From Ensifer sp. LC11 (GTDB lineage: Bacteria > Pseudomonadota > Alphaproteobacteria > Rhizobiales > Rhizobiaceae): a stretch of DNA of 64,000 bases. Shown here one piece after another: positions 28,534-38,175 of this stretch (position 1 is its first letter; each line of letters starts with the position of its first letter). The position numbers were made by a program, and so were the translations under genes. The notes beneath the pieces were generated by a model. That model saw only the letters and a program-made list of their open reading frames with translations, searched no databases and was not told the DNA's origin. The stretch lies in the NCBI RefSeq assembly GCF_001695835.1, contig NZ_MBSO01000002.1:1-64000 (forward strand). Reading direction: 5' to 3'.

Positions 28534-28609
28534 GCCGCTTTAGCTCAGTCGGTAGAGCACATCATTCGTAATGATGGGGTCACGTGTTCGAGTCACGTAA
28601 GCGGCACCA
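28534..28609 (+). tRNA. tRNA-Thr (anticodon CGT)
   Basis: A complete cloverleaf: acceptor GCCGCTT/AAGCGGC, D arm GCTC/GAGC, anticodon arm CATCA-TTCGTAA-TGATG (anticodon CGT, decoding ACG), T arm ACGTG-TTCGAGT-CACGT, and an encoded CCA end. Accessory genes begin directly downstream. Confidence 0.93.
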
Positions 28610-28790
28610 TTCTTCTCAAGCACTTGTTGTTGTTGTCGTTGTTGCGAGCTTCGTAGCGCCAACTCGCAGAAAATCGCGCGCCGCGAAGGCAGATTTTCCT
28701 GGCCCGATCCTCCGAAAGAAGACCTCCGGTACAACGCCGGCTTTCCGGGAAAACGGGCGCCGTATGGTTTTCCATATCCCCTTCGTGCAC

Positions 28791-29240
28791 CTACGAAGCT
28801 CGGCCGGCAAGTGCATTGCGCCATTTCGCGATCCGAACGACGCGACCCTCGGGGTCACGCCTTATCGAGTGCCCGTGCATATTCGGGAAGAGATTCCGCT
28901 GCAGATCGCGGACGATCCGCGGCGCGTCGCCGTAGGGGGCGACAATGTCCATCACCCAGAGATGTTTGCCGGCCGCCCAACGGTCGGCCGGCGGATTTCT
29001 TCCGTGGGAAAGCATCGCCTCATGGCATTCGTCGTCAAGAAAAGCCCAGGTAACAAAAGCGGTAGGGCCGAGGTCGTCATTGCCGTAGATTTTACATTGC
29101 CCGCTTTTCAACGCCGGAACGATGTGCCTTTCGACCTCGGAAATGGACCAGTCGCTGTAATGGGAATCCATGGCGACGGCTATGATCATCCCCAATGCTT
29201 CGAAGATATTCCCCGTTCTCGGATCGTCGCTCGTCGTCAT
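28791..29240 (-). CDS. HlyC/RtxC-type toxin-activating lysine acyltransferase
   Basis: A 149-aa protein aligned by eye with HlyC. His27 in SHYSDWS corresponds to the catalytic His of LHRNWP, and Asp98 in LWVMDIVAPYGD to the Asp of WFIDWIAPFGD. The C-terminal SIRRDPEGRVVRIAKWRN matches the AIRVDP...KVSEFHG block. These enzymes move a fatty acyl group from acyl carrier protein to internal lysines of RTX toxins before secretion. Its ATG follows the TGA of the adaptor gene with no gap, so it is the last gene of the secretion operon. No RTX toxin gene is visible in the window. Confidence 0.85.
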   Translation of the reverse strand: MTTSDDPRTGNIFEALGMIIAVAMDSHYSDWSISEVERHIVPALKSGQCKIYGNDDLGPTAFVTWAFLDDECHEAMLSHGRNPPADRWAAGKHLWVMDIVAPYGDAPRIVRDLQRNLFPNMHGHSIRRDPEGRVVRIAKWRNALAGRAS

Positions 29241-30557
29241 TCATCGTTCTCCGAAACTGTCTTGCAATGCCTTGAGGATGGGTTCGAAAAAGTAACTGAT
29301 CAGTCGCCGCTCGCCGGTGATCACATCAACCGTCGCTGTCATCCCAGGTGAAAACGCCGCCATGCGGTCGCCGACGGCGATACCGCTCTGTTCGGGTTGA
29401 AGCCGGACGGCATAGACCCAGGGCCCGCCTGGCGTCTGTTGCCGAGCGTCGGCGCCAACGCTTGAAACGGTTCCGCGGACAACACCAAAGCGCTCGGGCG
29501 GAAAGGCATCAAACTTCACGAATGCCCGCTGACCCGCTTTAAGGAACCCGATATCCCGATTGTCAAAGAACGCTTCGAGTTCAATCTTGTCATCGGACGG
29601 AACCACCGTCATCAAGGTGGCACCAGCCTCAACAAATCCGCCGATCGTGTGCACCGACAGGTTTTCGACCCGACCGTTGATTGGGGCCTCAAGCGAAAGA
29701 TCCGCGAGCCGGCGTTCGGCAGCACCCAACTCGCCCTGCAAGGCCTTCAACGCAATGGATGCGGCGCTGAGCTGCTTTCGATAGGTGGAGCGCACTTCCG
29801 ATATCGCGCTCTTGCGCTGCGCCGTTACAGTCTGAGCTTCGGCATCAAAGCCGGCCAACTCGCGCTCGGCGATAAGAACCTCGTTCTTGCCGGCGTTGAT
29901 GAGCCGCGAGCGTTCAAGGTATTCGGAATTGCTGATCGTGCCTTGCTCTTTCAAGGACGCAGATGCGGCGAAACGTTGCACGAGAATGTTCCATTCGGTG
30001 CGCGCTTTCTCGATGCGAGCGACCTGAACGCCCTTCATCTGCTCGATGCGGAAAATCTGTGCATCGATTTGCGCAATCCGGTCGCTCAGCGCCGATAGAA
30101 CCGCAACTGTTAGCGCTTCGGTGTCGCCAGAACCTGCCCCACTCTCCCGCCGCAGGACGGTCAGGCCACCGTCAACAAAATCCTCGCTGGCGGGATCGCC
30201 ACCGTCCAGCGGCGAAAGGATCGACCGCGCAACGGCTCTATCCTGAGTCTGCCTGTTGATTTCAGCCTTAATGCGATCAATGTCGCTTCGGACCGACGTA
30301 TCATCCAGCTCAACAAGCGGTTGGCCCCGCTGCACTGCTCCGCCTTCGGTAACATGGATGGCTGTAATCTTGCCGTCGCCCCGGGGCTGCAGCGTCTGGA
30401 CGCGGCCTGCCGGTACGACTTTGCCCTGACCGCGCGCTACGATCTCGGTTCGGGCAACATAGCTACCGGCGACGGCCACCGCAAAGAACCCAACGAGCAG
30501 CCAGACGGTTATGCGAATGGTCGGAGAAGCCGGCGTCCCCCATTGCTGGCTTGTCAT
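29241..30557 (-). CDS. HlyD-family type I secretion membrane-fusion protein
   Basis: A 438-aa protein with one N-terminal inner-membrane helix (about residues 15-35) followed by the biotinyl-lipoyl-like half GQGKVVPAGRVQTLQPRGDGKITAIHVTEGGAVQRGQPLVELD. A long coiled-coil region follows, then the second lipoyl half and beta-barrel (APINGRVENLSVHTIGGFVEAGATLMTVVPSDDKIELEAF). It bridges the ABC exporter to a TolC-type outer-membrane channel, which is not encoded here. It overlaps the exporter gene by four bases. Confidence 0.92.
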   Translation of the reverse strand: MTSQQWGTPASPTIRITVWLLVGFFAVAVAGSYVARTEIVARGQGKVVPAGRVQTLQPRGDGKITAIHVTEGGAVQRGQPLVELDDTSVRSDIDRIKAEINRQTQDRAVARSILSPLDGGDPASEDFVDGGLTVLRRESGAGSGDTEALTVAVLSALSDRIAQIDAQIFRIEQMKGVQVARIEKARTEWNILVQRFAASASLKEQGTISNSEYLERSRLINAGKNEVLIAERELAGFDAEAQTVTAQRKSAISEVRSTYRKQLSAASIALKALQGELGAAERRLADLSLEAPINGRVENLSVHTIGGFVEAGATLMTVVPSDDKIELEAFFDNRDIGFLKAGQRAFVKFDAFPPERFGVVRGTVSSVGADARQQTPGGPWVYAVRLQPEQSGIAVGDRMAAFSPGMTATVDVITGERRLISYFFEPILKALQDSFGER

Positions 30558-32254
30558 GCTGGCTCCGCCATTGCGTGTTCCGTTGGAGCCGCCTGGAGGC
30601 TTGCAAGGTCAACGACGTTGACGTCCAGGCCAAGAAGCTCCGGGTGGTGTGTAATCACGATCAACGTTCGATGACGTGCCAACCGTTTCAACGCCTCGAT
30701 AATGATGGCGGCCGACGCCGCATCGAGTGCGCTTGTGGGCTCATCGAGCACGAGTGCGGCGGCATCACAAAGCAACGCCCGCGCCAGAGCCAGGCGCTGC
30801 CGTTGACCACCCGAAAGATGGCCGCCGCGTTCGCCGACATCGGCTTGCAGGCCGCCCGGAAGCTGTGCCACCACTTCGTCGGCAGCACTGTCAGCCAGCG
30901 CCCTCTGGATCTCCGTTTCCGTTGCATCCGGTCGCGCGAGCAGCAGATTTTCCAGCACGGTACCGGAAAACAACACAGGCTCCTGCGGCAGGTAGACGAC
31001 CGCGCGTCGCACGCTTTCGGGATCGCAAGCGCTGATGTCTTTGCCATTGACCCGAATCGTCCCGGTCTCTGGCGTGTAGAGGCCAGACATCAGTTTCGCC
31101 AACGTCGATTTGCCTATGCCGGAGCCACCGACGATGATGGTTGGCCGGTTGGGTTCGATATTGAGGGTGAGGTCACGGATCACCGGGCGGTCCGGTACGT
31201 AGCCAAACGAAACGCCGCTGAGGCTGAGCCGCAAGGGGCCTTCTATGCGCAACGGCGGCCGGGCAACCTCGGTCTCCACCGGCCTGTTCAGGAAATCACC
31301 GAGGCGAAGACGCGCGACGCCGATTCCCTGCCATTGCTCCCATATGGACGAGAGCGACATGATCGGCCCGGCCACCTTCTCGCTCAGGAGATGGAAGGCA
31401 ATCAATTCGCCAAGCGTGATCTCGTTCTGAAATACCAGCTTTGAACCGAAGTAGATAATCAGGATAACGGAGCTGTTCTCAAGGATGTCGCCAACGAAAC
31501 CGTCGGCGATGTTGAGTTTAGCAACCCGAAATTCCGCTGTAAGACCGTCCTCCAGCGTCTCCTGAAACCGCTCGGCTTGCCGCCGTTCGGAGGCCAGCGC
31601 CTTGACGGTGATGACATTGGCAAACGTTTCGACAAGCCGAGACTGATGGCGCGCACCGGCAAAAAAGGACGCCTGCATCCGTCGCCTGAGAAATGGCCCC
31701 ATCACTCCGAAGGCGGCCAATTGCAACGGAAGCATGATCAGAACGACCGCTGTCAGCAACGGGCTGATGGACAGAAGCGCGCCGATGTAAATGGCAGCGA
31801 AAAGCACATCGAGCACATAACCGGACATCGTCCCCGTCAGAAATGCTCGAACGGTGTTGATTTCGCCCATACGCGCCAGGGTTTCTCCGACCTGCCAGCG
31901 CTGCAGGAATTGCAGCGGCAGGCCGAGAACGTGCCGGAAAATCCGGCTCGCCATTTCCGCGACGAGGCGGTTGCCCATATGGTTGCCAAGGTAGGCGGAC
32001 AGCGCCTGCAGCGTAGCGCTCATCAACGTGACGAGCGCCAAGACGACAACGATCAGGGTCAGCGTCGCTTCCCGCTGAAATGGCAGCACGCGATCGATGA
32101 TCGCCTGGAATACGAATGGTTGAACCAGTCCGAGAAGTCGAATGACCACCGCCACGACCATGAGTTCGGCGATGAATGGCGTGTAACGGAATGTCGACTG
32201 AGTGAACCATGCCAGCGGTGCGGGTCGCGATTGACCTTCCTGCGCGTCTCGCAA
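30554..32254 (-). CDS. HlyB-like type I secretion ABC exporter without the C39-like domain
   Basis: A 566-aa exporter with six membrane helices (from about residue 25) and an ATPase domain: Walker A GGSGIGKST, signature LSGGQRQRLALARA, Walker B ALVLDEPTSALDA, and switch His in VITHHPE. The membrane part aligns with HlyB from APLAWFTQSTFRY onward, but the roughly 130-residue C39-peptidase-like domain that HlyB carries before it is absent. The chosen TTG at 32254 has AAGGAGG 5 bases upstream. Farther upstream in-frame codons (to 32353) are not family-like. It heads the minus-strand operon with the adaptor and acyltransferase. Confidence 0.88.
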   Translation of the reverse strand: MRDAQEGQSRPAPLAWFTQSTFRYTPFIAELMVVAVVIRLLGLVQPFVFQAIIDRVLPFQREATLTLIVVVLALVTLMSATLQALSAYLGNHMGNRLVAEMASRIFRHVLGLPLQFLQRWQVGETLARMGEINTVRAFLTGTMSGYVLDVLFAAIYIGALLSISPLLTAVVLIMLPLQLAAFGVMGPFLRRRMQASFFAGARHQSRLVETFANVITVKALASERRQAERFQETLEDGLTAEFRVAKLNIADGFVGDILENSSVILIIYFGSKLVFQNEITLGELIAFHLLSEKVAGPIMSLSSIWEQWQGIGVARLRLGDFLNRPVETEVARPPLRIEGPLRLSLSGVSFGYVPDRPVIRDLTLNIEPNRPTIIVGGSGIGKSTLAKLMSGLYTPETGTIRVNGKDISACDPESVRRAVVYLPQEPVLFSGTVLENLLLARPDATETEIQRALADSAADEVVAQLPGGLQADVGERGGHLSGGQRQRLALARALLCDAAALVLDEPTSALDAASAAIIIEALKRLARHRTLIVITHHPELLGLDVNVVDLASLQAAPTEHAMAEPA

Positions 32255-32427
32255 ATTCCCCTCCTTCACACGCCCCTCGCGTTGAGCAACGTTTATGCAT
32301 GAATCGATAAAAAGACAACCGATGCGGGAAGACCATTGACATGCTTCGCGCAAAATGATCGCCTACCAACGCAATCGACGCGTGTGTCAGATTGTTGATT
32401 TATCGTATAGCGAACAAGGGGATTTCA

Positions 32428-32673
32428 ATGGGTAGCAGAGACAGAGGCAGTAGCGGTGGCGTAAACAGGCAAGCCAAAACGAACCGCGACGGTTCGAAGA
32501 ACATTCGCGACGGCTTGACCGACCAGGGCCGACAGGCCCGAGATCGCTCGCCCGGCCGTTTCAACGGAGCAGATCACCTTTTCCAGGACCGCAATGGATC
32601 GGGTTGCACCTCCTGCCATGTTTCCGAACCTGACAGCAGCATCCGTAACCAATTTCGCGGTAGGAGTTGGTGA
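32428..32673 (+). CDS. Small hydrophilic protein, unknown (possible)
   Basis: An 81-aa frame with AAGGGG 6 bases before its ATG, so translation is plausible. The product is rich in Gly, Ser, Arg, Asp and Asn (MGSRDRGSSGGVNRQAKTNR...) with few hydrophobic residues and one CTSCH that resembles a haem c motif but has no signal peptide. It starts 173 bases from the divergent exporter gene. A minus-strand frame over the same bases (32425-32652) starts with TTG and has no good ribosome site. This could be a secreted-peptide substrate or simply non-coding. Confidence 0.35.
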   Translation: MGSRDRGSSGGVNRQAKTNRDGSKNIRDGLTDQGRQARDRSPGRFNGADHLFQDRNGSGCTSCHVSEPDSSIRNQFRGRSW

Positions 32674-32747
32674 AGGCAGAATTTAGCCCTAGAAAAGAGG
32701 CGGCGCGACTTTACAAGGCCGCGCTGCTAACAAATTCAGGATCATCT

Positions 32748-33713
32748 ATGCGCATTCGGTTTTTAGTTGCAGGGCTTGCCACGCTAGTTGCCTTGGGTAG
32801 TGCCGGATATGGGACGCATCAGCGCGGCGACTACAACAAGTACGTTGATCTAGCCATAAACGAACACGGTCCAAATATTAACTTCGTGTATGTCCCTCAA
32901 TTTTTCCGTGATGAACCGGGACATTTTAGCGTCGCAATCGATGCGGACATGCCGCGAAAGTACTCGGATTACGTTAGGAGCGTGTATGCGTTCCTCGCAA
33001 GAGTGAGCAATCGTACGGTTGATTTCGAGATGGTTTCTGCCGGCGCCCTAATGAAAGCGGACCGGTTTGTTTATGTCGGAAGCGACCCCAGCAATGACGT
33101 TGATCCGCACACGTTCCAAAGTCCCTTTGCGGCAAAATTGCGCTCATCGCTATCGAGAATATACCCGAATGAAAACGATGAAATATACTGGAGTATACTT
33201 AATTTATATTTGCCAGGATATTATGGGCGACCTCTATTTTTCAATTCTGATTTTGCAACGATGGATTTTAAACGCGCGCAAAGTGAAAAAACATATTCAC
33301 TTAAAAGCAATCGCATCGAGAAGGCGGCGGTATATGTTAATGTCCCACCAATACCAGACGCTCCAGAACAAGATGTCGAGAGATTCACGAAATTCATTAT
33401 TATTCAAGAGATATTCCAAGAGTACAATGTGGCGCCTGACATTAACGGTAGTGACTTTCAATTGAAAACTATACTAAATGACAATGATGGCGCTTTGTTA
33501 GACACTCGCGGGGTAGAAACCATGCGTGGCGCGTACAATACAGCATCCTCTGCTTTGTGCCCGTATGATGTCATGTTGACGTCTCAACTGCATGCCAGGC
33601 CAAATGCAAACCCTGAGCCTGTTGGTTTGCTCACTTACCTTGGCCTCTACGCTCAAGCGTATTGGTATCGCTTTACGTCTCCGTCCGATTTATTTGACGA
33701 CCGCTGCTGGTAG
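32748..33713 (+). CDS. Exported protein of unknown function, AT-rich gene
   Basis: A 321-aa protein with a signal peptide (MRIRFLVAGLATLVALGSAGYG). The mature part contains FVYVPQFFRDEPGHFSVAID, FIIIQEIFQEYNVAPD, LKTILNDNDGALLDT and YDVMLTSQLHARP. The order 'QE.FQ ... .PD ... ND ... D..L...L' faintly recalls DUF2927 exported proteins, but I would not assign it. Base composition is strikingly AT-rich around 33160-33480 (ATA, TTA, TAT codons), unlike flanking genes, which suggests horizontal transfer. The ATG at 32748 has AGGA 7 bases upstream. It heads the plus-strand cassette with the next two genes. Confidence 0.75.
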   Translation: MRIRFLVAGLATLVALGSAGYGTHQRGDYNKYVDLAINEHGPNINFVYVPQFFRDEPGHFSVAIDADMPRKYSDYVRSVYAFLARVSNRTVDFEMVSAGALMKADRFVYVGSDPSNDVDPHTFQSPFAAKLRSSLSRIYPNENDEIYWSILNLYLPGYYGRPLFFNSDFATMDFKRAQSEKTYSLKSNRIEKAAVYVNVPPIPDAPEQDVERFTKFIIIQEIFQEYNVAPDINGSDFQLKTILNDNDGALLDTRGVETMRGAYNTASSALCPYDVMLTSQLHARPNANPEPVGLLTYLGLYAQAYWYRFTSPSDLFDDRCW

Positions 33714-33789
33714 CCTTCGAAGAAGCCCCGCTTTCGAAAATTTCGCCGTTTCAGAGTTGTTAGAACAGGCGCCGGAAGGAGACCCTAGA

Positions 33790-34200
33790 ATGATAAGCGC
33801 AACGCCTGCATTAATATCTCTTTCTCTCTATATATTGATTTGGGACAAACTTCCGTTTTGGGGGAATTGGTTCAACTATGCTTTGGATAAATGTCCAACT
33901 TGGATGCAGACTTTATATGAGCAGTGGCGGTGCCCATTCTGCGTGGGGTTCTGGCTAGCGGGCTTTGTACATTTGACCGTTGGACTATGGACGGTAGGAG
34001 AACTGGAAACCTACCCAATTTTGTCGGGCTGGCCGACCTTTGCACTGTATATTTTTCTCGATTGTCTTTCCTGCGCAACGCTCGTCTATGTCGGAAACTT
34101 GATCGTGAGCGTGCTGCTCTCATCGACAATCAGAGGTCACGAGATAAAGACTGACTATATGCGAGCGGCATCCGCGGACCGTGAACGAGAGTCGACCTGA
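33790..34200 (+). CDS. Small membrane protein with a CPFC motif (DUF1360-like)
   Basis: A 136-aa protein with an N-terminal helix (about residues 5-18), the motif WRCPFCVGFWLAGF (Cys48, Cys51) leading into a second helix, and a long hydrophobic region (about 82-112). DUF1360 membrane proteins have a similar C-x-x-C-x-G-x-W motif near a helix; the match is by eye. The pair of cysteines might bind metal or form a disulfide. The ATG has GGAAGGAG upstream. The next gene starts 9 bases after its stop. Confidence 0.65.
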   Translation: MISATPALISLSLYILIWDKLPFWGNWFNYALDKCPTWMQTLYEQWRCPFCVGFWLAGFVHLTVGLWTVGELETYPILSGWPTFALYIFLDCLSCATLVYVGNLIVSVLLSSTIRGHEIKTDYMRAASADREREST

Positions 34201-34209
34201 AGAGGGTGC

Positions 34210-34947
34210 GTGCTCATCGGCGCAAGCAATCGCGTCGACCGGTGTTCATTCGCGGAGGGTCTGAAAGAAAGAATGTTGTTTAATGCAGTCTTTGCGATAA
34301 TCGTCGCTCTTTCACTACCCATCATCGTTGGAATGCGCAGTGTTGCACCTGTCGTGTTATGCGCATTCCTTTCCTTCGCTATTGCTGTGTTTTGCGGCAT
34401 CCCAATTGCGGGGTTGGCGGGGAGGTTCTTTGAACCTTTGGGTTTCCTCTATTTCCTTCTCGTCGCCCTTCCAGAAGAAATCAGCCGTGCAGTCGGATTG
34501 TTGATTCTCTTGAAAATTTTCGCGAAGAATCAAATTGATACCTTTGATCTGCTCGCAGGGTTTGGCATAGCCATAGGCTTGTTTGAGTTTGGTTTGAAAC
34601 TTCTACATCTGTATGGCGACGGCTACCCCTGCACTCTCGCAGATTTAACGACGCAATGCCTGACGAGCCAGGCCTACACCAACGTTGTCCTCGGTTCGAC
34701 GATTTTGATGCACGCATTCTTGACGATCGGGTATGCCCAGCTCTTCAATAGAAGCAGTTGGTGGCGGTGGTCGTTGGTCGTGCTATGCGCAACCATCACG
34801 CATGCGGCTCTGAACAGCCTATCTGCCGACTCTGCCGGCGACATATTTCCCTTTCAGAAGCTTCCGCTCTTCCACATCGGTGCAATTCTGTTCTACCTGG
34901 CGATAATTGCTGTATGCCGGAGCCGCAGGTCTGCTAAGGCAGTCTGA
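34210..34947 (+). CDS. Multi-pass membrane protein, candidate PrsW/CPBP-like intramembrane protease
   Basis: A 245-aa protein with about seven membrane helices. Residues in membrane segments resemble PrsW/CPBP-type glutamic intramembrane proteases: Glu89-Glu90-x-x-Arg93 (PEEISRA), Glu126 (AIGLFE), His168 (LMHAF) and His198-x-x-x-Asn202 (THAALN). The order EExxR, then E, then H, then HxxxN is that of the family. Substrate unknown. The GTG at 34210 is preceded by GAAGAGGG; an ATG at 34273 without a clear ribosome site is the alternative. It is the third gene of the AT-rich cassette. Confidence 0.65.
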   Translation: MLIGASNRVDRCSFAEGLKERMLFNAVFAIIVALSLPIIVGMRSVAPVVLCAFLSFAIAVFCGIPIAGLAGRFFEPLGFLYFLLVALPEEISRAVGLLILLKIFAKNQIDTFDLLAGFGIAIGLFEFGLKLLHLYGDGYPCTLADLTTQCLTSQAYTNVVLGSTILMHAFLTIGYAQLFNRSSWWRWSLVVLCATITHAALNSLSADSAGDIFPFQKLPLFHIGAILFYLAIIAVCRSRRSAKAV

Positions 34948-35099
34948 CAGAGCCTCGGTATGCGTACGGAGGATCGAATGAGCCGCCGCCGCCTGTTCTG
35001 CAAGTTCAGAACTGACGGCAAGCTGAATGCGCATGGCGACTGCGTGCGTGGCCGCCTGGGCGAGCATGGCGAACTGATCTTGGAACGACGGGGCCGCGC

Positions 35100-35771
35100 C
35101 TATGCGGCCTGCACCTTCCAACCATGGTCGGCATCCAACATAGTACCGGGTGTCGCAACGCCGTCGAGAAGAACTTCCAGACCTTGAGCGCTCGGCAGGT
35201 GACGCCTTTCCGGGAACCATGGCCGATGGGGGTCGACGGCAATCAGCATCCCCTCGTCATTGCCGATCGCGCCGAAACTGGAAGAGGCCGGTGCGAGTGT
35301 TCCGACGCCGAATGTCCAGACAGCTTCGGCAACAGTACCCTCGACATCGCCCGTTGGAAGTCCGACCTCACTGAGGCAGGACAAATCGGACCCGCTGAAG
35401 GGCAGCTTCGCCGCAGGGCCGACCAATCGACGGCGGCCGATCAATTCAAGGACAGAGCTATCGGGACCGTCGAAGTAGACAGATTTTGACTGCCAATCTC
35501 CCTCGAGGACGTGGCACTCGTTACCATCCGGCTCTCTTTGAAGAGGTGTGCGTTGCTTCAACCAGGCGATTGCGGCATCAAAGCGCTCATAGGGTACGTT
35601 GAAAGCCAGATGCACACCGCGCGGCGCCGCCTGCATGGCGGGGATCAGCCGAATTTCGCTCCACCCCACCTGGATGGAATTCCCGATCGTCGGCAATTCC
35701 AGCAGGTCGCGAAAGAAGCCCGCACTCTTCGAAACATCGGATGTCGGCAGTGACAATTTTCTTATGCGCAT
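35100..35771 (-). CDS. Two-domain VOC-family protein (glyoxalase/dioxygenase superfamily)
   Basis: A 223-aa protein with two VOC modules. The first starts MRIRKLSLPTSDVSKSAGFFRDLLELPT and ends VYFDGPDSSVLELIGRR; the second is shorter and starts LSCLSEVGLPTGDVEGTVAEAV. Such proteins bind a metal and act on thiol adducts, antibiotics or aromatic compounds; His/Glu ligands are only partly visible. A SoxR-type promoter lies directly upstream, pointing to induction by redox-active compounds. The ribosome site is weak. Confidence 0.8.
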   Translation of the reverse strand: MRIRKLSLPTSDVSKSAGFFRDLLELPTIGNSIQVGWSEIRLIPAMQAAPRGVHLAFNVPYERFDAAIAWLKQRTPLQREPDGNECHVLEGDWQSKSVYFDGPDSSVLELIGRRRLVGPAAKLPFSGSDLSCLSEVGLPTGDVEGTVAEAVWTFGVGTLAPASSSFGAIGNDEGMLIAVDPHRPWFPERRHLPSAQGLEVLLDGVATPGTMLDADHGWKVQAA

Positions 35772-35986: not shown

Positions 35987-37216
35987 TCAAAGCAGCAAAA
36001 GCTTCTTCAGAACCGAGAAGACTTCCTTGTAGGGCAGCCTGGTGGCGCCGGCGACCGCGAAGGGAATGAGGGCTGCGGCGGCGACAGGCACGACCGCGTT
36101 GCGACTGATGAGCATGGTTGAGAGCTTGTTGGTCGTGTCGAACAGCTTGCTTGGGTCGGCAATCTCCTCGTCCGGTTCCGGGCCGGCATCAGCAGCCACG
36201 TTTCGGCCGAGCACCTTGCGCTCGGCGGCGCGGTGGAAACGCGTCGCCTGTACACCGAGCATCAACAACCCGTTTTCCTTGAGCCGTGCAAGCGGCTGCG
36301 AGAAGGCCGACAAGGGATAGGCGAAGAACGCGATCACGATCGCCAGCCAGCCGCCCATGATCATGCTGAACGTCGTCATCGAGAGCGTCTCTTGCAGGAG
36401 GTGCTTCATGACTGCAGCGGCGATCGCCGCGCTCATGCCGAAGACGAAGAACATATAGGCGTTCGGATATTGCGACAGAAACCCGAGCCCGCCCTTGCTA
36501 TCGGGATGGGCCGCCACGAGCCGAAGCTCGAGCCCGGCGATCTTTCGCAGCAGTCGCGCCCAGACGAAGTGCCGCCATACCCCGCGCAGGAACAGAAAGA
36601 CGAAGAACGGCAGGCTGACGCAGATCGACCACCAGCCAGCCGCAGTAATCCTGTTGCCCTCGGCCGAATGCGCCACAGCCCAGGACGAAATGTCCGACGC
36701 GTGAAAGTTCAGGAAGGAAAGCAGTGCGGCCATCGCAGCGAACGCGAGGCAGACCAGTTCGGCAAGCCGGCTATCGCGCTGTTTCAGTGCCGTCGAGATG
36801 GCTTGAGCGGCAACCGGCATCGAGGTCGGTGCAATCAGCGGTGCCCGCGCGAACTGTCCGAGCTTGGTGCGCAGACCCCGCTCGACCTGCTGTTCCGCCA
36901 GCACGAAGGCGGCAATGGCAATGAAGAACTTCGCCCACACGCCCGGATCGGTCAGGTAGGCGCCTTGGCTGTGATCGAGCGACAGGCTCTCTGGCAGTCC
37001 GAGCAGAAAGGGAACGCCCCAGGCAAGGGCAACGAAAAGCAATGCCCTCTTGCCCGACTGCAGGGCGTTCGCGCGCAGAAGTTTCAGCCGGGTCTGAAGC
37101 TCGAAGAACGGGCCGCCGTGGGACGCGAGATATTCAGCGATCTTGCCTTGCCGAGCCGCTGGAGCGGCTTCCGCCGCATCGCTGCCGGGTGCCCGGTCAC
37201 TGGGGGCCGCACTCAT
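35987..37216 (-). CDS. Multi-pass membrane protein, unknown
   Basis: A 409-aa protein with about eight hydrophobic segments (for example SGKRALLFVALAWGVPFLLGLP, WAKFFIAIAAFVLAEQQ, ICVSLPFFVFLFLRGVWRHFVWARLL, TTFSMIMGGWLAIVIAFFAYPL) and a hydrophobic C-terminus ending KKLLLL. No family recognised. The ATG at 37216 overlaps the Shine-Dalgarno zone of the upstream DUF2950 gene end (5-base gap), so the two are likely an operon and may work together in the envelope. Confidence 0.75.
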   Translation of the reverse strand: MSAAPSDRAPGSDAAEAAPAARQGKIAEYLASHGGPFFELQTRLKLLRANALQSGKRALLFVALAWGVPFLLGLPESLSLDHSQGAYLTDPGVWAKFFIAIAAFVLAEQQVERGLRTKLGQFARAPLIAPTSMPVAAQAISTALKQRDSRLAELVCLAFAAMAALLSFLNFHASDISSWAVAHSAEGNRITAAGWWSICVSLPFFVFLFLRGVWRHFVWARLLRKIAGLELRLVAAHPDSKGGLGFLSQYPNAYMFFVFGMSAAIAAAVMKHLLQETLSMTTFSMIMGGWLAIVIAFFAYPLSAFSQPLARLKENGLLMLGVQATRFHRAAERKVLGRNVAADAGPEPDEEIADPSKLFDTTNKLSTMLISRNAVVPVAAAALIPFAVAGATRLPYKEVFSVLKKLLLL

Positions 37217-37221
37217 GAGCG

Positions 37222-38175
37222 TTAATCCTCCACGACCTGCCAATTGTCGTTCGGGTTGAACTGTCGGATGCCTGAGGCAACGCTCTCGGTCTTGTCACCG
37301 AGATCGGCCTGATAGACGGTGCCGTTGCGGTTGACGACGAAGCTGTGAACGCCTGTCACGCCATACTTCACCGGCCAGGCGACAAGCCCGAAACCGGCGA
37401 TCATGTTGCCGTTGATGATGTAGTCGAACTTGCCGCCGGCGATGTTGTCACCCTGGCTCGTCAGCACGCGATAGCGATAGCCGAAGTAGCCCTTGCCGGC
37501 CTGTGCCCTGGCGAGCACAGCGCCGTCGGCAAGCGCTTCGCCAGCCGGGCTTTGCGGCTCGCCTTCGGTAGCGGGCCAATAGAGCCCATCCGTCTTGCCC
37601 TCGCTGCTGATCAGCTTCTGCGCGTATTCCAGAACGCCGTCACCATCGTGATCTGCAAGCGCGTACTCCTCCTGGGCCTCGACATAGGCCCGCACCGTGG
37701 CGATCGTGTCGAGTTCATTGCTCCCGACCAGACGATTGGCGATCTCCTCAAGACCGGTATAGGTATCGAAGGCCCACTTGCCATCATCACCCTTGGCGAT
37801 CGGGAACGGGAAAGGCCAGAGCACATCGCCGATCTCCAGCACCTTGCGGTTCTCGACGTCCTCGACCGTCACCTTCTTCTTCACCCCCGCCTGGATATCG
37901 GCATAGGCGTCCATGACACCGTCGCTCGCCTTGGCCTTGGCGGCGTCCAGACCCACCAGGTTCGCGAGCTTGTCGAAATCACCTGAGGCGACCGCCGACT
38001 TGAAGGCGTCAACCGCCTGATCGGGCGTATCGAACGCCGGCGGATCGCTGGCCGCGGCATAGTCGGAAAGTGGCGCCCCGGAGCCATCTTGCGCTGAGAC
38101 AGCCATCGCAGAAGCGCTGGCGACAACGACGCCGGCGATCGTGGACAGGAGCAGATTGCGTGCGATCTTGATCAT
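37222..38175 (-). CDS. DUF2950-family exported protein
   Basis: A 317-aa protein with a signal peptide (MIKIARNLLLSTIAGVVVASASAMAVSA) and the DUF2950 pattern: FDTPDQAVDAFKSAVASGDFDKL near the N-terminus, then DGVLEYAQKLISSEGKTDGLYWP and AGKGYFGYRYRVLTSQGDNIAGG. The function of the family is unknown. It follows the DUF3300 gene by 20 bases on the same strand; these two domains are often found side by side, which suggests a common envelope role. Confidence 0.88.
   Translation of the reverse strand: MIKIARNLLLSTIAGVVVASASAMAVSAQDGSGAPLSDYAAASDPPAFDTPDQAVDAFKSAVASGDFDKLANLVGLDAAKAKASDGVMDAYADIQAGVKKKVTVEDVENRKVLEIGDVLWPFPFPIAKGDDGKWAFDTYTGLEEIANRLVGSNELDTIATVRAYVEAQEEYALADHDGDGVLEYAQKLISSEGKTDGLYWPATEGEPQSPAGEALADGAVLARAQAGKGYFGYRYRVLTSQGDNIAGGKFDYIINGNMIAGFGLVAWPVKYGVTGVHSFVVNRNGTVYQADLGDKTESVASGIRQFNPNDNWQVVED

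Follow-up and report, generated by a model that had tools for sequence, protein, structure and literature searches.

A 64,000-nucleotide stretch of Ensifer sp. LC11 (NZ_MBSO01000002.1, positions 1 to 64,000; hereafter, the window) carries three plus-strand genes at 32748–34947, termed g1, g2 and g3, which share a 6.5-kb island with an HlyC–HlyD–ABC type I secretion operon. The best reading is that this is a Cdz/microcin-like export island with g3, a membrane protein with protease-like motifs, as its processing (or immunity) protein. We tentatively regard the three-gene cassette as belonging to a compact type I secretion island that was acquired laterally and of which it forms one arm. The small product exported from this island would be processed by g3 and serve in competition. 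The features of the island and its border are as follows (ORF, open reading frame).

28534–28609, plus strand: tRNA-Thr (cgt), at whose 3′ end the island begins
28613–35099, no strand assigned: island missing from four same-genus relatives, with its right end located only to 34948–~35158
28791–29240, minus strand: HlyC-family acyltransferase homologue (PF02794, E 2.6e-32, 111.8 bits, cut-off 25), with Tyr at the column taken for the active-site His
29241–30557, minus strand: HlyD-type periplasmic adaptor (TIGR01843, E 2.7e-105, over the cut-off)
30554–32353, minus strand: type I exporter ABC protein (PF00664 and PF00005; no PF03412, the C39 peptidase, at E up to 1)
32428–32673, plus strand: small ORF (MGSRDRGSSGG.., 81 amino acids), candidate exported substrate, with a ribosome site and start in common with locus L051
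32748–33713, plus strand: g1 (321 amino acids), open frame with one N-terminal hydrophobic stretch, orphan family
33790–34200, plus strand: g2 (136 amino acids, CPFC), open frame, membrane protein with CxxCxGFW
34210–34947, plus strand: g3 (245 amino acids, GTG start), open frame, membrane protein with PrsW/CPBP-type motif order

A preliminary description had presented g1–g3 as a cassette unlike the chromosome in composition and divergent from an acylation/secretion operon near a tRNA, and this arrangement is borne out. The three frames are open, with gaps of 76 bases between g1 and g2 and 9 bases between g2 and g3; the hlyC–hlyD–ABC block (28791–32353, minus strand) is divergent from the plus-strand genes and lies near the tRNA-Thr; and the cassette has a GC content of 48.6%, compared with a mean of 62.5% (standard deviation 1.6, minimum 58.8%) across 569 other overlapping 2.2-kb windows of the same 64 kb. 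The unit itself had been drawn too small, since the plus-strand run begins before g1, with the 81-codon ORF at 32428, and the true unit is the whole island. Its borders were obtained from a flank comparison anchored on the next conserved gene (35987–37243), which was matched in 14 of 15 other same-genus genomes, using 19-kb stretches around that gene from the seven most similar of them (79–89%). The left flank (to 28611–28617) lies near the right flank (from 35099–35158) in four of these seven stretches, separated by 75 bases in G010, 87 in G009, 97 in G005 and 828 bases of other DNA in G002, and was not found in the remaining three stretches. The interval from 28613 to ~35100 was therefore inserted here or lost elsewhere, and so constitutes a 6.5-kb insertion (or a loss elsewhere) at a variable site, the tRNA-Thr 3′ end. 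Because G002 carries different DNA at this same site (L046 14580–15408), the site is a small hot spot. No integrase family was found among the eight island products scanned, no attachment repeat was detected flanking the island, and promoter and terminator scans gave counts similar to those of shuffles. A phage or defence origin of the cassette was unsupported by phage, PHROG, PADLOC and related searches; for g2, two matches to phages (E 0.009) and one to a PHROG (E 0.008) were seen.

We compared the island with other loci encoding HlyC, which was matched in 3 of 16 genomes of the genus, 6 of 387 of the order and 7 of 142 of the class (own genome counted in each), as well as in 700 of 72,556 plasmid records (690 from Escherichia), where only Sinorhizobium meliloti was fetched. 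The resulting 16 loci comprise the window, L051 (from G002), L052, L059 and twelve others; a partial match in G013, a second match in G904 and all other plasmid matches were left out. HlyC and HlyD are accompanied by an ABC protein with no C39 match in four loci: the window (599 amino acids), L051 (571), L052 (566) and L059 (566; C39 absence judged on the best 25 of 30 Pfam families). A motif scan for membrane proteins with EExx(x)[RK]..H..HxxxN (charge limit, 0.17) detected one in three of these four loci (181 ORFs), compared with none in the twelve other HlyC loci (412 ORFs) and none in twelve further stretches (664 ORFs), the comparison stretches being 3.3–21.5 kb long, some from one genome, and 7 of the 12 further ones being the same-genus flank stretches. 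The one-sided exact odds are 0.007 for three of four versus none of twelve, and 0.03 without the window. In L051, hlyC on the minus strand is followed on the plus strand by a small ORF, the motif protein, ABC and HlyD, and the motif protein ends 3 bases ahead of the ABC gene. The order in L059 is a Gly-rich 100-amino-acid ORF, a 62-amino-acid membrane protein, the motif protein, ABC, HlyD and HlyC, all on the minus strand; with the genes as called, the frame of the motif protein and the ABC gene share 4 bases. This motif protein exceeds the Pfam cut-off for CPBP (PF02517, E 1.2e-14, 54.8 bits, cut-off 22.4), so that the support from L059 is independent of the charge limit. At L059 11610–12155, the Gly-rich product has 10 GxxxG and adjoins the 62-amino-acid membrane protein; the two are perhaps a Cdz-type toxin/immunity pair.

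The residues earlier ascribed to g3 are all present: EEISR, a membrane Glu, a His and HAALN, in PrsW order and with hydrophobic stretches. This ordered pattern, which was composed after g3 had been seen, appeared in 1 of 20,000 composition shuffles of g3. The PrsW motif set (EExx[KR], E(N), H, HxxxN) is complete in g3 save for the N after the second E, where g3 has F and the PrsW rows L064 and L065 have N. Applied bare, with no membrane filter, the pattern matched 15 of 1141 ORFs, namely three PrsW proteins, g3, the L051 protein and ten unrelated frames (nearly all charged; two with >55% hydrophobic letters), and because unrelated frames match it, the motif carries little weight by itself. When compared with a profile built from three PrsW members, g3 scored 25.6, and the best of 60 shuffles 19.2. 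The label PrsW-like thus holds for motif order and fails for family membership, as g3 does not match PF13367 (PrsW), which had no matches in the own genome in a search that was positive in 4 of 14 control genomes; we accordingly call g3 PrsW/CPBP-type by motif, and not a family member. There was no convincing sequence relative of g3 in 397 genomes of the order, where faint matches in 10 other genomes (E 4e-4 to 0.008, short stretches, frames of 103–1077 codons) were taken for chance, and none in plasmids, phages or pattern scans of viral and genome contigs.

The four loci also share a change in HlyC. Acyltransferases of this type use a His/Asp dyad (PMC8510554), with His23 named for HlyC (PMC3034196). 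The column taken for this His was assigned, like the other dyad column, from the conserved pattern rather than from alignment to a solved enzyme. Every one of the four C39-less loci has Tyr in this column; of the 14 other rows, 12 have His, and the exceptions are Leu in L061 and Gln in one half of L080. One Asp is invariant across the HlyC proteins of the four loci. The window protein thus falls in PF02794 and lacks the dyad as assigned, but since His-to-Ala acyltransferases keep residual activity (PMC8510554), a homologue with Tyr need not be dead. The window, L051 and L052 cluster in the HlyC tree (85/88).

The small ORF at the head of the plus-strand run provides a further connection with L051. 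Its ribosome site and start read AAGGGGATTTCAATGGGTAGCAGAG, and the counterpart head in L051 reads AAGGAGACTTCTTATGGGTAGCAGAG and opens an 88-codon ORF; the alignment of the two scores 29, compared with 28 for the top of 1000 shuffles made with pairs of bases as the units. An overlapping minus-strand ORF (P0004), with no family match, was dropped, the plus-strand frame being preferred because its start is common with L051. Such a pattern, in which the head is constant and the body varies, would be compatible with diversifying selection on exported products, which two cases cannot show.

The genes g1 and g2 form part of the best explanation as accessory genes of separate origin that ride on the export island. 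Contrary to the preliminary description, which saw no clear homology for the first gene, g1 has homologues in Rhizobium altiplani (43%; intact), R. sullae (42%; on a plasmid, frame broken) and G292 of the same family (26%; one in-frame stop). Having been found in 1 of 393 other family genomes and 1 of 72,556 plasmids, the g1 family is rare. It is putatively exported, as judged from its one N-terminal hydrophobic stretch, and may be a divergent DUF2927 protein. Homologues of g2 with 34–37% identity occur in two Phaeobacter plasmid records, where a MarR gene adjoins, and in two of 396 other order genomes (E < 1e-40; matches at 7e-4 and 8e-4 in two more were dropped as chance). All share CxxCxGFW with g2, and the Phaeobacter homologue has a weak DUF1360 match (E 0.08). 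Tblastn searches of the fetched stretches detected neither g2 nor g3 around three g1 homologues (L002, L004/L023, L024) and neither g1 nor g3 around three g2 homologues (L003, L021, L022); none of the three genes had a tblastn match in the 15 other HlyC loci, and g3 and the L051 protein miss each other by the same method. The idea of g1–g2–g3 as one conserved module was therefore rejected, as the genes were together nowhere else among the loci compared.

Several features of the homologue loci were recorded alongside. The R. altiplani g1 homologue (L024 3729–7873) is flanked by sensor-kinase-like and response-regulator-like frames (by eye), and a MarR-type regulator gene, annotated as such in L003 and recognised by eye in L021, lies upstream of two g2 homologues (L003 9381–10269 and L021 3620–5414). 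In G002, the secretion locus forms a small island that separates a thyA-like from a DHFR-like frame (gene names by eye); it is bracketed by an imperfect direct repeat of ~79 bases, which stems from the 3′ end of thyA (L051 9043–9120 and 13849–13925). Similarly, the G292 g1 homologue lies within an imperfect direct repeat of ~110 bases (L004 1025–1133 and 2433–2542) whose source is the 3′ end of a transport gene of BMP type (identified by eye). The two resemble inserts that carry with them, or duplicate, the 3′ end of the gene they target; for the window, L024 and L052, the same script revealed no similar copy.

A number of results weigh against an export island processed by g3. No family was reached by g3 in Pfam, NCBIfam, PHROGs (E up to 1), PADLOC (0.1) or PDB sequences (5), or by the L051 motif protein in Pfam or NCBIfam, PF02517 (CPBP/Rce1-like) included. 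The hhalign probability for g3 is 6.6%, over 47 columns around the first motif only, and the L051 protein scores 16.6 against the PrsW profile, inside the shuffle range (maximum, 19.5). Two AlphaFold models are poor (predicted local distance difference test, pLDDT, 38 and 48), including an unusable single-sequence AlphaFold2 model of g3 (pLDDT 48.2). The scan's charge limit had been relaxed from 0.14 to 0.17 after L059 was missed. L052 has no motif protein, its gap holding small ORFs only, and its record labels the ABC protein 'peptidase domain-containing'; in the window, 1.86 kb separate g3 from the ABC gene, and the two are on opposite strands. Among the twelve control HlyC loci, only L079, L080 and L081 have both ABC and HlyD matches (L082 has an HlyD match alone and eight have neither); the L079 and L081 ABC proteins carry C39, and that of L080 has ~170 residues ahead of the membrane domain, with no match. 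A like-for-like comparison is thus three of four versus none of three complete exporter loci, with odds of 0.11. The proposed link between cassette and secretion operon accordingly gains from the motif protein adjoining ABC in two of three other C39-less loci and is weakened by this comparison. The small products of the window and L051 are alike only at the start, with the body matched by 559 of 2000 shuffles, and the window product has no glycine zipper (2 GxxxG, 23% G/A/V/I). In the HlyC tree, the four C39-less loci need two label changes and form a single group in 54% of bootstrap trees, with the place of L059 open, so that a single shared origin is neither shown nor excluded.

Under the reading we favor, the ABC exporter and HlyD adaptor would secrete a small protein, for which the 81-amino-acid MGSR product is the most likely candidate. 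The HlyC-family protein, without the usual active-site His, would modify or escort this small protein. If g3 is a protease at all, it would clip the exported protein in or at the membrane, replacing the C39 domain, a role suggested because the exporter lacks that domain. The system would probably serve to compete against related bacteria, a purpose it would share with Cdz and class II microcin systems. Cdz itself and the acyltransferase-like gene among the Serratia class II microcin genes are precedents. In addition, bacteriocin activity is reported to need the CAAX protease SilX, which may act by processing the signal peptide, and PrsW is described as a toxin-release peptidase in polymorphic toxins (PMC3482391).

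The same genes could be read in other ways. That g1–g3 are unrelated to the exporter, the island being pieced together from separate DNA at a tRNA hot spot, is somewhat unlikely: the GC content of the exporter block (59.5%) versus the cassette (48.6%), the occurrence of g1 and g2 apart elsewhere, the other DNA at this site in G002 and the small number of proper controls would all agree with chance neighbors, but a motif protein in three of four loci of the exporter type versus none of 24 comparison stretches, and the small-ORF start block common with L051, speak for an association. We consider it unlikely that g3 is instead an Abi-type immunity protein shielding the producer from its own exported peptide, as in some Gram-positive bacteriocin loci. 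Apart from g2, the window shows no obvious immunity candidate, which would suit such a function; however, L059 holds a separate small membrane protein in addition to its CPBP protein, leaving a non-immunity role for the protease-like protein, and a SilX deletion mutant was reportedly not sensitive, with peptide processing indicated.

A signaling role, in which g3 would be a PrsW-type protease that removes a membrane-bound regulator and g1 would be the exported sensor or substrate of that protease, appears highly improbable. PrsW is described as the site-1 protease for RsiW (PMC3482391), and g1, with its single hydrophobic stretch, is in the same gene run as g3. Against this, no sigma or anti-sigma family was found among the scanned island products, and no g3-type neighbor occurs at the three g1 homologues in the stretches fetched.

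The exporter of Serratia class II microcins is reportedly a PCAT (peptidase-containing); the window ABC protein has no C39 match. In the available text on the Serratia loci, small exported peptides lie beside an oppositely encoded exporter pair, as in the window, where the product is only a candidate, and a gene similar to toxin-activating lysine-acyltransferase is included, but no CPBP/PrsW gene is mentioned (PMC13101503). The export island also resembles Cdz of Caulobacter, an alphaproteobacterial type I exporter with two divergent operons and small exported proteins, which is often horizontally acquired, and CaaX proteases are among the genes of the islands in or beside which Cdz-like systems lie (PMC5380434). 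In that description, no modification enzyme is obvious among the cdz genes, unlike at this locus with its HlyC homologue, and Cdz-like products have 60–151 amino acids, a leader ending in G[G/A/S], a glycine zipper and a short charged or polar C-terminus, a description outside which the 81-residue window product falls for want of the zipper. The genes for a type I exporter, by which killing and immunity operate in a Cdz-like system, are present here. Like HlyCABD-type RTX operons (PMC3034196), the island has HlyC, HlyD and ABC families; unlike them, it has no RTX substrate gene among the neighboring frames listed, no C39-like domain in the ABC protein and a changed HlyC active-site His column. 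Finally, g3 is like PrsW (PF13367) and CPBP/Rce1 (PF02517) in being a multi-pass protein with EExx[RK], E, H and HxxxN in order, but reaches neither model.

Each part is known, and the combination seems unreported: the literature matches listed, which mostly exclude subscription journals, contain no recognised description of a C39-less exporter accompanied by both a CPBP/PrsW gene and HlyC homologues. A further reading, in which a Gram-negative small-protein export system has an intramembrane PrsW/CPBP-type protease in place of the exporter's C39 leader peptidase, together with an HlyC-family protein that has lost the active-site His and acts as an unusual acyltransferase or substrate escort, is rather unlikely. 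If true, leader removal in some type I systems would be handed to a separate, membrane-embedded protease, and HlyC-family proteins would be able to function without their His. It would also hint at what the CaaX-type genes reported in the vicinity of Cdz-like islands do, and would indicate that rhizobia and related bacteria possess a compact, mobile system for competition.
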